Source: Blastococcus sp. TF02A-26
GTDB taxonomy: Bacteria > Actinomycetota > Actinomycetes > Mycobacteriales > Geodermatophilaceae
Length of the DNA: 64,000 nucleotides
Direction: 5' to 3'
Assembly: GCF_003319125.1 (NCBI RefSeq)
Contig: NZ_QOHG01000020.1
Coordinates: 1 to 64,000 of the forward strand
Shown: in pieces, positions 145 to 8,441 of the stretch
Layout: each line of letters opens with the position of its first letter
How positions within the stretch are numbered: position 1 is the stretch's first letter
Translations under genes and position numbers: made by a program
Notes under the pieces: generated by a model
Told to the model about the DNA's origin: nothing
What the model saw: only the letters and a program-made list of their open reading frames with translations
Database searches by the model: none

Positions 145-945
145 TCAGGCGATGTCGGCGAGCTTCGTGCGCAGGTGCAGCACCGCCTTGGTGTGCAGCT
201 GGCAGATGCGGCTCTCGGTGACCCCGAGGACCCGGCCGATGTCGGCGAGGGTGAGCCCCTCGAAGTAGTAGAGGCTGACGACGACCTTCTCCCGCTCGGG
301 GAGCTGCTCGACCGCGCGGGCCAGCAGCTGGCGGGCCTCGCCGTGCTCGGCCATCGCCTGGGGATCGAGGGCGGAGTTGTCCTTGAGGGTGTCGACGAGC
401 CGGGGGGCGCCGCCGTCGTCGTCGGTGAGCAGCTCGTCGAGCGCGACCACGTTCACCAGCGAGAGCTGGCCGAGGAACTTGCGGACCTCCTCGACGTCCA
501 TGTCCATCTCGGCGGCCACCTCCTCGTCGGTGGGGCTGCGCTGGAGCCTGCTCTCGAGGTCGGCGACGGTCCGCTCGAACTGACGGGCCTTGCTCCGGAC
601 CGACCGCGGGATCCAGTCGGTGGTGCGGAGCTCGTCGATGATCGCGCCGCGGATGCGGGCCATCGCGTAGCTCTCGAACTTGACCTCCCGCGAGGGCTGG
701 TAGCGGGTGATCGCGTCGATCAGACCGAAGGTGCCGTAGGAGGCGAGGTCGGCCTGCTCCACGTGCGCGGGCAGCCCGGAGCCCACCCGGCCGGCGACGT
801 ACTTCACCAGGGGGGCGTAGTGGAGGATCAGCCGGTCCCGCAGGGCGGGGTCGCGGTCCTCGACGTAGTCGCGCCACAGCGCCGCGATGGCGGCATCGGT
901 GTCCTCGTTGGACTCGTCGACCGTGTCGATCGTCGCCTCGGGCAC
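145..945 (-). CDS. whiG: RNA polymerase sigma factor, WhiG/FliA family
   Basis: This 266-aa sigma-70 family protein directs RNA polymerase to flagellar or sporulation promoters. Region 2 is visible ([14 protein letters not shown], then the [15 protein letters not shown] stretch), followed by region 3 ([12 protein letters not shown]) and a region 4 helix-turn-helix ([20 protein letters not shown], then [10 protein letters not shown]). I chose the GTG at 945 because a GGGGGAG ribosome site lies 7 nt before it. A longer reading to an ATG at 1035 adds 30 residues without a domain. The position next to xerC matches the whiG region of other Actinobacteria. Whether it serves motility or development cannot be told from sequence alone. 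Confidence 0.9.
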
Positions 946-1031
946 GGTGTGACTCCCCCGCTCGCTGATGGGTCCGGAAGAACGGCCCCGTGGTTGCGTT
1001 GCTCTCACGGTATCGGCAGCCGTCGGGAGGT

Positions 1032-1967
1032 TCACGCGCGCGGATGGGCCTGTGCGTGCACCGCGCGGAGCCGTTCCACCGTCACGTGCGTGTAGATCTG
1101 CGTCGTCGCGAGGCTGGCGTGGCCCAGCAGCTCCTGGACCGAGCGCAGGTCCGCACCGCCCTCGAGCACGTGCGTCGCCGCCGAGTGCCGCAGCCCGTGC
1201 GGTCCGATGTCCGGCGCTCCCGGGGTCGCCGCGACCGCCGCGTGGACCGCGCGCCGGGCCTCCCGGGGGTCCAGCCGGCCGCCGCGTGCACCGAGCAGCA
1301 GGGCGGGGCCCGAGCGGTCGGTGGCCAGCGCAGGCCTGCCCCGCGTGAGCCAGGCGTCCAGCGCCCGCTCGGCGGGCAGCCCGTACGGGACGCTGCGCTC
1401 CTTGCGGCCCTTCCCCAGCACGCGCAGGAGGCGGCGGTCCCGGTCGACGTCGTCGACGTCCAGTCCGACCAACTCGCTGACGCGGATGCCGCTGGCGTAG
1501 AGGAGCTCGAGCACGAGGGTGTTCCGGAGGTCGAGTGGCTCCTCCGCGCCCGCGGACGACTCGACGACCGCCTGCGCCTGCGCCGGCGCGAGCACCTCCG
1601 GCAGGGTCCGGTGGGCCTTGGGGCTGACCAGCCGCAGACCGACGTCCTCCGAGGTGAGTCCGGTCCGGCGCAGCCAGCCGGTGAACGACCGGGCCGACGC
1701 GGCGCGCCGCGCGGTGGTGGCCCGGCTGTCGCCCGTGGTGCGGCCCTTGGCGAGCCAGCTGCGCAGGGCGGCGAGATCCAGCTCGTCGACCCGGGTGCCG
1801 CTGCGGCGGGCGAGGTGGTCGAGCAGCGAGACGGCGTCGGTGACGTAGGCCCGGACGGTGTGCTCGGACAGCTCCCGTTCCCCGCGCAGGTGCTCCTCGT
1901 AGTCGTCCACGACCGCGGCCAACGCTGGCGGCAGGCTCGCGCGCAGCTGGGCTGTGGAGGCGGGCAC
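1032..1967 (-). CDS. xerC: Tyrosine recombinase XerC
   Basis: A 311-aa site-specific tyrosine recombinase that resolves chromosome dimers at dif together with XerD. The N-terminal SAM-like core-binding domain ([21 protein letters not shown]) precedes the catalytic domain. The catalytic residues are visible: Arg in [11 protein letters not shown], the HxxR pair in [10 protein letters not shown], His in [10 protein letters not shown] and the Tyr nucleophile in TQIYTHV. The length is normal for the family. The GTG at 1967 (reading [10 protein letters not shown]) is chosen for family length; its ribosome site is weak. Confidence 0.93.
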
Positions 1968-2075: not shown

Positions 2076-2879
2076 ATGGCACACGACTTCGACGCGCTGC
2101 TCCGCCTGCATGCCCGGGGGGACGACGCGTTCGAGAACGAGCCGCTCGTCGAGGGGCACCTGTACGGCGGGTACACCCTGGGCCTGGCGGTGCGCGCCGC
2201 TGCGCGGACGGTCGCCCCGGGCCTGCTCCCGCACTCGGTGCACGCGGTCTTCCCCTCCGGCGGTGAGCTCGGGAGCCCGCTGACGTTGGGGGTGCGCGCG
2301 GTCCGGAACGGTCGGTCCAGCGCGGTCCGGCTGGTGACCGTGGAGCAGGGGCGGCGCACGCCGCTGCTCCTGACCGCCTCGTTCCACGCCGGAGGGCCCG
2401 GCCCCGACTGGTCCTCGCCGTTGCCCGCCATGCCCACTCCGCCCGAGGAGATCGCCGCAGACGAGGTCCGGCTGATGGGGATGGACCCGTTCGAGTTCCG
2501 CCCGGCCGGAGCGCACCGGGTCGACGCCGGAGCCGACGTCTACGCCCCGCTGCACCCCTACTGGGTGCGTCCGCACCTGCCGCTGCCCGACGACCCCGGC
2601 CTGCACGCCGCCGTCGTGGCGTTCGTGTCCGACTACATGGTCTTCGCCGCCGCCCAGGTGCCCGGTCCGCCGCCGCCCCCGGAGACCCGGGGGGTGACCA
2701 TGGACCACACGCTGTGGTTCCACGCTCCCGTCGACGCCGGGGAGTGGCTGCTCTACTCCGCCGAGCCGACCCGCGTCTGCGGCGACCGCGGACTGGTCCG
2801 CGGGACCGTGCGCACCCGCGACGGCGCCGTCGTGGCCTCCTTCGCGCAGGAGGTCATCACCTTCACGCCGCGGGGCTGA
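2076..2879 (+). CDS. Acyl-CoA thioesterase, TesB-like hot-dog family
   Basis: A 267-aa protein with two hot-dog-like halves, as in TesB-type and Thioesterase-like superfamily enzymes. The N-terminal half has the family feature [22 protein letters not shown], where the chain passes over the acyl site. The C-terminal half has [23 protein letters not shown] and the [13 protein letters not shown] ending typical of these enzymes. It should hydrolyse acyl-CoA esters; the substrate chain is unknown. It starts 108 bp from the divergent xerC and is the only plus-strand gene in this stretch. Confidence 0.78.
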
Positions 2880-7372: not shown

Positions 7373-8092
7373 TCAGACCTCGGCGGTCTCGACCGGGGCG
7401 GCAGCGTGGGCGCCACAGGTGCACCCGGTGCCGGTCGAGCGCGAGGAGAGGACCAGGGAGACCGCGTGCGCCCGGTCGCGGGCACCCAGCTTGCGCAGGA
7501 TGGCCTTGACGTGGCTCTTGACGGTGTCCTCGCTGATGAAGAGGTTGCGGCCGATCTGGCGGTTCGACTGGCCCTGCAGCAGCTCGTCGAGGACGTCGGA
7601 CTCGCGACGGGTCAGCGGCACCTCGGGGGCGAACGGCTTGGCGGCCGGCACGGCGGAGGGCTCCACCCGGCGGATCTGCGGGTCGACCACGGTGCGGCCG
7701 GCACGGGCGGCCAGGATCGCCCAGCCCAGGAGGGTCGGGCTGGTGTTGATCATCAGGTACCCACGGACACCGGCGGCGACGGCCTCGTTGACCACGGCCG
7801 GGTCCTCGGAGGTGGCCAGGGCGACGATGGCGACGCGGGGGAAGCGGCGGCGGAGGTCGCGGCACGCGGCGAGCGTGGCGGCGCGGCCGGAGCCGAGCTC
7901 GACGACGACGGCGTCGGGGCGGGCGGTCTCGACCAGGGTCAGGGCCCGGCGCAGCTCGCCCGGGGTGCCGACCGACTGCATCCCGGCGGTCTCGTTGATC
8001 ATGCTGACCAGCCCGCGGCGCAGGACCGGGGCGTCGGCGAGGATGAGCACGCGAGTGACGCCGCGGGCGGTGCTCGCCATGGGTGCAGACAC
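7373..8092 (-). CDS. Atypical LuxR-family response regulator with degenerate receiver
   Basis: A 239-aa protein with an N-terminal receiver-like fold (about residues 13-130) and a C-terminal LuxR/GerE helix-turn-helix (LTRRESDVLDELLQGQSNRQ, then SEDTVKSHVKAILRKLGARDR). Key receiver residues are altered: the acidic pair is A19-D20, the phospho-acceptor position is E65 (VVVEL instead of the usual VxxDL), and the conserved Lys after GYL is replaced (GYLMIN). It is therefore unlikely to work by ordinary phosphorylation. No histidine kinase is nearby. The GTG at 8092 has a GGAG site 6 nt upstream. Orphan atypical regulators of this kind (BldM, WhiI) control development in Streptomyces; that comparison is analogy only. 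Confidence 0.85.
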   Translation of the reverse strand: MSAPMASTARGVTRVLILADAPVLRRGLVSMINETAGMQSVGTPGELRRALTLVETARPDAVVVELGSGRAATLAACRDLRRRFPRVAIVALATSEDPAVVNEAVAAGVRGYLMINTSPTLLGWAILAARAGRTVVDPQIRRVEPSAVPAAKPFAPEVPLTRRESDVLDELLQGQSNRQIGRNLFISEDTVKSHVKAILRKLGARDRAHAVSLVLSSRSTGTGCTCGAHAAAPVETAEV

Positions 8093-8441
8093 TGGAGACT
8101 CCGTTTCACACGTTCGGGGTGGTGCTTACACACCATCCATCGGACGAGTGAGAGAACTGCTTGACACTTCTTCCGACATTATTTTCGCCATTGTCGGAGC
8201 GGGCTGGAAAGCGCGACCGAATCCCAATGGTAACAGTTCTCCGGATTGTCGACTTGACGATAGGCCATTCGACGACCATTCGACGACCGATCGAGGAGGA
8301 CGCCAACGCTCCGCCGTGACCCCTCGGACGGCTTGCGACGGGGCCCGGACGGCCGGGAGGCACGGCCCCCCGGGCGTGCGACATCCCGCGACCTCTCGGA
8401 ACGGGGGGGCCGGGATCAGGAAGCGGAGTCGGGGATCCGGC
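8093..8441. promoter_or_regulatory. 349-bp intergenic region upstream of the atypical response regulator
   Basis: No gene was found. The region is unusually AT-rich around 8160-8290. It holds a small dyad TGGTG-N6-CACCA at 8120-8135, a 7-bp dyad TCCGACA-N13-TGTCGGA at 8172-8198 with an AT-rich centre, and a perfect 11-bp tandem repeat CATTCGACGAC at 8266-8276 and 8277-8287. These are candidate operators or promoter elements for the regulator. The part next to lepB can form a GGCCCCCC/GGGGGGGCC hairpin, a possible lepB terminator. Confidence 0.55.

Follow-up and report, generated by a model that had tools for sequence, protein, structure and literature searches.

The regulator gene, its locus and its distribution

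The DNA analysed here (hereinafter, the window) comprises 64,000 nucleotides from Blastococcus sp. TF02A-26. Its minus strand encodes a regulator of 239 amino acids, running from a GTG start codon at position 8092 to a stop codon at position 7373, and carries the following features.

145..1035, minus strand: WhiG/FliA-family sigma factor (TIGR02479, 284 bits against a cut-off of 189.6; Pfam sigma-70 regions 2, 3 and 4)
7373..8092, minus strand: orphan NarL/FixJ-type regulator with a pseudo-receiver, 239 aa (open reading frame, Pfam, alignment)
7406..7423, minus strand: C-terminal CTCGAH motif (C224, C226, H229)
7454..7618, minus strand: GerE/LuxR helix-turn-helix, residues 159–213 (Pfam), with a BldM-like 'SEDTVKSH...KLGARDRAHAV'
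7703..8056, minus strand: pseudo-receiver, residues ~13–130 (alignment, conservation, fold)
8099..8102, minus strand: ribosome-binding site GGAG ahead of the start codon, kept in the upstream alignment
8137..8164, minus strand: promoter of the flagellar-sigma (FliA/WhiG) class, TCAAG-N15-TCCGATGG (conserved upstream alignment)
8145..8159, minus strand: constrained promoter spacer CAGTTCTCTCACTCG containing a TCAC(C/T)C half-site, a candidate operator (spacer comparison)

The regulator combines a receiver domain (Response_reg, 39.3 bits versus a cut-off of 30.2, residues 15–114) with a GerE domain scoring 70.8 bits (cut-off 23.5), the architecture of the NarL/FixJ subfamily, and the LuxR-type DNA-binding domain is intact, as the preliminary description of this DNA had held. 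The HTH is BldM-like: residues 144–212 are 54% identical to the BldM orthologue encoded in the same genome. The NCBIfam equivalog cut-offs were not reached (MadR, 125.8 of 300; NarL, 104.3 of 250; NarP, 103.5 of 343). The top Foldseek matches to the AlphaFold2 model (mean pLDDT 86, pTM 0.58) are full-length NarL-type regulators; DevR/DosR, LiaR and NarL, for which structures have been solved, share the overall fold and the HTH with the regulator but, unlike it, retain the phosphorylation pocket. We found no publication on this protein in the limited literature collection that was searched.

A scan with one genome per species yielded 159 relatives. The best 80 share 78–97% identity with the regulator and carry the labels Blastococcus, Geodermatophilus, Modestobacter, Klenkia, Trujillonella and Goekera, along with one each of 'Geodermatophilaceae bacterium', 'Frankiales bacterium' and an unverified 'Bacillus sp.'. 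Among these best 80, 74 loci display the same arrangement on one strand, with trmD, rplS and lepB preceding and rnhB and DUF2469 following the regulator gene; of the remaining six, one (L099) is cut, so that only the rnhB side is visible, and five are second copies located elsewhere. When 394 genomes from the class were sampled, 12 gave matches better than an E-value of 1e-30. Two of these belong to the family (G000 and G013) and show 94–100% identity, plus a further copy at 80%; the remaining ten are 36–39% identical. Across 35 Geodermatophilaceae genomes, the regulator is present in 26 and absent from 9, five of which are less than 85% complete. As far as searched, it is special to the Geodermatophilaceae, a family of bacteria from soil and rock. 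Six of the 26 genomes carry two copies, and the second copies found outside of the lepB–rnhB locus (L101, L103, L104, L105, L107 and L138) all preserve both the tail motif and the relaxed form of the promoter described below. An acyl-CoA thioesterase gene (2076–2876, plus strand) runs against the direction of the block around it, which is otherwise mostly encoded on one strand.

Loss of the phosphorylation pocket and a conserved cysteine tail

Alignment with DevR, LiaR and NarL places A19, D20, E65, A93 and I115 of the regulator at the DD1, DD2, D, T and K positions, respectively, such that D20 (DD2) is the only pocket residue retained. The strands of the AlphaFold2 model (beta-1, 13–18; beta-3, 61–66; beta-4, 88–93; beta-5, 111–114) agree with this assignment. 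We then compared 85 distinct orthologues, derived from 106 sequences (35 family genomes plus the best 80 of the 159 relatives, together with the second copies of Modestobacter). All 85 have A19, D20 and E65; the Thr position is occupied by A in 70 and by G in 15 sequences, and the Lys position by I (50), M (25), L (9) or V (1). The fixation of A19, D20 and E65 argues against both decay and sequencing error. Since 85/85 orthologues lack the Asp of DD1, the phospho-Asp, Thr/Ser and Lys, the protein is not a canonical two-component response regulator; with a Response_reg match above the cut-off, a preserved fold and the loss of all pocket residues but D20, it is a pseudo-receiver, or atypical response regulator. 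Pseudo-receivers have been reported to lose DD2 more often than DD1 (PMC12632262), so that the loss of DD1 and retention of DD2 seen here reverses the commoner pattern. With its pocket lost, the regulator cannot use Asp phosphorylation as usually understood.

A misread canonical response regulator, with the phospho-Asp shifted or the sequence in error, would be compatible with the retained D20. We give this reading hardly any weight, however, because the end of beta-3 aligns without gaps with DevR, LiaR and NarL, and the same A19, D20 and E65 recur in all 85 orthologues, from many assemblies. As far as an alignment can, ours refutes a shifted phospho-Asp, E65 itself occupying that position. 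D60 is the ordinary Asp of an 'RPD' motif, five residues ahead of the phospho-Asp position.

The preliminary description had read the receiver residues in the same way (A19-D20, E65 and a non-Lys), which the alignment and the orthologues bear out, but had also suggested that E65 could mimic permanent phosphorylation, and this part was not supported. In this version, the regulator would be a constitutively active homodimer. Glu is reported as the commonest residue at the D position of Asp-less receivers (PMC12632262), and E65 never varies among the 85 orthologues. Nevertheless, phosphomimicry by Glu has been explained as 'perhaps' acting through binding of the conserved Thr and Lys (PMC12632262), and in every one of the 85 orthologues these positions are taken by A/G and I/M/L/V; with the usual contacts missing, a phosphomimetic E65 is improbable.

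The orphan, phosphorylation-independent character regarded as likely in the same description is supported. It had also noted the lack of a nearby kinase, and none was detected among the ten neighbouring proteins that were profile-scanned between positions 148 and 10519, a set that excludes an apparent gene at ~1036–2075 and the rest of the window.

Further features, absent from the preliminary description, are a Cys tail, a flagellar-type promoter, a WhiG gene in the window and a link with a degenerate BldM. A Cys pair is present in the C-terminal tails of all 85 distinct orthologues, spaced as CxC in 84 and as CxxC in one (L080); in 83, the CxC is accompanied by a His within four residues, mostly as CxCxxH, and L097 has a CxC with no His behind it. 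The rest of the tail varies in both length and sequence, with 75 distinct strings following the motif among the 85 proteins (two counted as empty). The tail pair represents the only Cys residues in 15 orthologues; 69 contain exactly three and one contains four. Among 87 NarL-family proteins from outside this group (81 of them distinct), a CxC never occurs in the last 30 residues, and only one has any Cys there. In the AlphaFold2 model, the last helix (207–221) ends three residues ahead of C224. The last helix of NarL-type proteins takes part in dimer contacts.

These observations are consistent with a redox or metal switch, in which the CxCxxH tails of the two subunits in a dimer would either form disulfides or bind a metal jointly near the last HTH helix and thereby control dimerisation and DNA binding. 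We consider this reading possible but would not bet on it. In its favour are the persistence of the Cys pair in 85/85 orthologues while the remaining tail drifts, the 15 proteins that contain no other Cys, and the location of the motif directly past the 207–221 helix, and Cys-based control is known for other pseudo-receivers, namely, RitR and HP1021, which are described as controlled via Cys rather than Asp (PMC12632262). For the regulator, such control is a proposal only. The Cys residues of RitR and HP1021 are reported in the linker or the receiver (PMC12632262), whereas the CxC lies in the tail behind the LuxR-type HTH. Furthermore, the tail is modelled at low confidence (~50), and the CxC may have another role, for instance, in stability or partner contact.

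A flagellar-type promoter with a constrained spacer

In the window, 44 bases separate the TCAAG-N15-TCCGATGG element from the GTG start codon. To assess its conservation, we assembled the upstream regions of the window and of 74 loci with lepB upstream, which gave 75 regions, 74 of them distinct (L100 was left out because of runs of N). The strict form, TCAAG-N15-nCCG, occurs in 62 of the 74 distinct regions, compared to 7 of 3700 single-base shuffles, and the relaxed form, T[AC]AAG-N15-n[CT]CG, in all 74, compared to 23 of 3700 shuffles; the relaxed element is located 66–72 bases ahead of the start codon. It is also found in 26/26 family genomes carrying the regulator, although these data overlap with the 74 regions.

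As a control, we examined 21 flagellar stretches of the family, 19 of which yielded a flagellin gene. TCAAG precedes all 19, with a spacing of N15 before nCCG in 18 and N14 in one, and the −10 element reads GCCGTA in 12 cases, GCCGTT in four, and GCCGAA, GCCGAT and TCCGTT in one each, rather than GCCGATAA. The regulator promoter matches the flagellin promoters of the family in the −35 element, the spacing and the CCG core. By contrast, it does not fit the published flagellar consensus, TAAA/GCCGATAA with two mismatches allowed (PMC8325347), from which its TCAA/TCCGATGG differs at four positions; the genome's own flagellin promoter, TCAA/GCCGTAGA, likewise has four mismatches. Given that the family flagellin promoters share TCAAG-N15-nCCG, we assign the regulator promoter to the flagellar class in the family's own variant, despite the four mismatches to the published consensus.

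Genome-wide, TCAAG-N15-GCCGW has 70 matches compared to 30 for a reversed control. Most of these appear to lie in coding sequence, as judged by a rough codon-position test, and hence we claim no regulon. The convincing matches precede only fliC, the BldM orthologue and a gene of the flagellar cluster which we take to be flbD-like. The flagellin element is located at 7908–7935 of its locus (L252) and that of the presumed flbD-like gene at ~2383–2410 (L253).

The sigma factor gene at 145..1035 lies 6.3 kb from the regulator. A second sigma candidate, which adjoins the flagellin gene, scores 154 bits, below the cut-off of 189.6. Judging from sequence, either of these two strong FliA-family candidates (C17 and C50) is a possible user of the promoter. 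Matches above the cut-off were found in 48 of 57 family genomes, and the presence of the regulator and that of WhiG agree in 34 of 35, the exception being G032, which has WhiG only. RsiG, the c-di-GMP-dependent anti-sigma factor of WhiG, has been reported in 16/16 Geodermatophilaceae species (PMC8325347), and c-di-GMP may accordingly be the first input of the circuit proposed below. No regulator was detected in G032, a small family genome (74% complete) whose WhiG-family gene (L306, G032:C56:1–14000) lacks the usual dprA, yifB and rnhB neighbours.

The 15-base spacer of the regulator promoter is itself constrained. In 11 genomes for which both promoters were read, the mean pairwise identity of the spacer is 0.602 for the regulator versus 0.383 for flagellin, and the regulator value is the higher one in 44 of 55 genome pairs, a comparison with no correction for kinship and in which G000, G001 and G002 are identical. 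The information content points in the same direction (17.9 bits in 17 sampled regulator spacers versus 8.0 bits for flagellin, with 17 of the 19 flagellin promoters used). This constraint suggests that the spacer is a candidate operator.

The BldM box has been described as TCACcCgnncGgGTGA (PMC4125116). In four Klenkia-type regions (L089, L092, L096 and L098), a near-perfect BldM Group I palindrome is positioned between the −35 and −10 elements, matching at 13 of 14 positions, against a maximum of 12 among 1480 shuffles, and L093 carries a symmetric variant. Most of the other spacers contain the TCACCC half alone. The full palindrome was rejected as a general operator, since 59 of the 74 regions score just 10 or 11, as do 4.6% of the shuffles; among those of the 10–11 regions displayed, it is mostly the left half-site that is present, and the right half is confounded by the −10 element, so that we do not claim a full operator.

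The preliminary description had also pointed to repeats and dyads upstream of the gene as a sign of self-control. The repeats and dyads of this upstream region are individually weak, and so are several inverted repeats in the window; what is conserved is the sigma-factor promoter, whose constrained spacer usually carries a BldM-type half-site. Self-control is only hinted at, and the protein binding the spacer could be either BldM or the regulator. The direct repeats comprise two exact tandem copies of CCATTCGACGA at 8265–8286, and a third, degenerate copy at 8137–8147 overlaps the −10 element.

BldM, WhiI and the proposed circuit

The BldM orthologue of this genome (G000:C28:259935–260672; 1471–2211 of L119, minus strand) was identified from its neighbours and the tree. 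Next to it lie guaB and a gene for a WhiB-like protein; in Streptomyces, bldM lies with guaB and whiD. Its receiver, followed by a long linker, has D, E, G, G, Y and W at the six compared positions, which indicates that the phospho-Asp, Thr and Lys have been lost. In this respect, both the regulator and the BldM orthologue of the family differ from Streptomyces BldM (L172), which keeps its Asp residues. BldM has been reported to function independently of phosphorylation (PMC4125116), a feature ascribed to the regulator as well. Of 57 family genomes, 46 carry the orthologue, and its presence agrees with that of the regulator in 35 of 35 genomes, where the nine shared absences come from three genera (g5, g8 and g10) and hence might reflect a single event. 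Outside these 35, G459 (99% complete) carries WhiG without the BldM orthologue.

In a tree of 74 proteins, for which the program warns of long branches, the regulator group (13 rows) comes out as a single clade with a long stem (100/100), WhiI (13 rows) forms a separate clade (100/100), and the 26 BldM proteins also fall apart from the regulator group. Orthology to BldM was rejected because the regulator belongs to a separate clade and the BldM locus is occupied by other genes (L119/L199).

Orthology to WhiI deserved closer consideration, given the A-D pair and the WhiG-type promoter. Streptomyces WhiI is likewise a NarL-type orphan pseudo-receiver, and in L246 and L247 its DD pair also reads A-D and its Lys is lost, as seen by eye. 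However, WhiI constitutes a different clade, lacks the Cys tail at its C-terminal end and is located at a hemE–rnd–fadA rather than a lepB–rnhB locus; in Streptomyces, whiI (SCO6029) lies near fadA and hemE. Moreover, true WhiI (E < 1e-26) occurs in 7 of the 35 family genomes, each of which also encodes the regulator. Tree, locus and coexistence together speak against orthology. True WhiI was not found at this threshold in the genome of the window.

The regulator could nonetheless act in a WhiI-like mode, as an obligate heterodimer with the BldM orthologue, two co-expressed pseudo-receivers serving as a coincidence detector that requires no ligand. The WhiI–BldM heterodimer has been demonstrated in Streptomyces (PMC4125116) and is described as a coincidence detector (PMC4125116, PMC12632262). 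Several of our observations are in line with such a pairing, including the 35/35 co-occurrence, the BldM-type half-site within the spacer of the regulator's promoter, the lack of true WhiI in 19 of the 26 family genomes holding both the regulator and BldM, and the strict flagellar-type element that precedes the BldM orthologue at 17 of 30 loci, with weaker forms at some others. The other 13 of the 30 loci lack the strict element, including seven with no TCAAG[GCT]T-like start within the 600 bases searched; the regulator is separated from WhiI by tree and locus and coexists with true WhiI in 7/35 genomes; and heterodimerisation leaves the Cys tail unexplained. On balance, we treat obligate pairing as a tentative and rather doubtful alternative.

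Instead, we favour, with a probability of roughly 0.6, the view that the protein is a family-specific, kinase-free regulator in a WhiG/FliA–BldM circuit, the activity of which would be set by its amount and dimer state and not by Asp phosphorylation. In Streptomyces, WhiG is held by RsiG loaded with c-di-GMP; here, free WhiG, or FliA, would drive synthesis of the regulator from the flagellar-sigma-type promoter, such that it would be produced alongside the motility genes. Either by itself or jointly with the BldM orthologue, the regulator would then control the motile/settled programme, and the CxCxxH tail past the last DNA-binding helix would provide an input (metal or thiol redox) replacing phosphorylation. 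Blastococcus has been described as comprising motile rods and/or non-motile cocci, and the strains of the study in question showed no motility (PMC9686282).

A more elaborate version can be envisaged, in which a motile/settled circuit without a kinase step leads from a WhiG/FliA sigma factor to two pseudo-receivers, the regulator and the degenerate BldM, acting jointly on DNA, the CxCxxH tail senses metal or thiols, and the role of the lost WhiI has been taken over in Blastococcus and Geodermatophilus. We regard this composite scenario as unlikely; if it is true, the receiver would be only a scaffold for dimerisation, and the sensing function would have shifted to the opposite end. The degenerate BldM, the absence of WhiI from many genomes, the third pseudo-receiver and expression tied to flagellar-type promoters suggest that the developmental pair BldM/WhiI of Streptomyces has been rewired in these motile, budding relatives.

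How pseudo-receivers are switched is acknowledged to be an open question (PMC12632262). For the regulator, a case strongly conserved within a single family, both a candidate input site (the two Cys and the His) and a candidate partner can be named concretely, which brings the question within reach of work on one protein and two of its point mutants. AsfR of Actinoplanes missouriensis is comparable in that it is reported as an orphan acting in the development of a zoospore-forming actinomycete, but it consists of a receiver alone, keeps all five residues of the pocket and requires its Asp (PMC11960193).

Streptomyces whiI has been reported to be WhiG-dependent (PMC4125116). In 19 of 20 WhiI-like loci, the 500 bases upstream contain no flagellar-type element, and a promoter common to the regulator and the WhiI-like loci was accordingly discarded. 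The seven family genomes bearing true WhiI (G004, G007, G010, G014, G021, G028 and G031; L265, L266 and L268–L272) probably belong, judging from identical sequences, to Klenkia, Modestobacter and Goekera. In two genomes (G331 and G145), taken as Streptomyces because 26 of 27 genomes of one genus share the same BldM score and BldM is reported to be identical in streptomycetes (PMC4125116), whiI is preceded by TAAAG-N15-GCCGAAGG, with the same spacing as in the promoter of the regulator.
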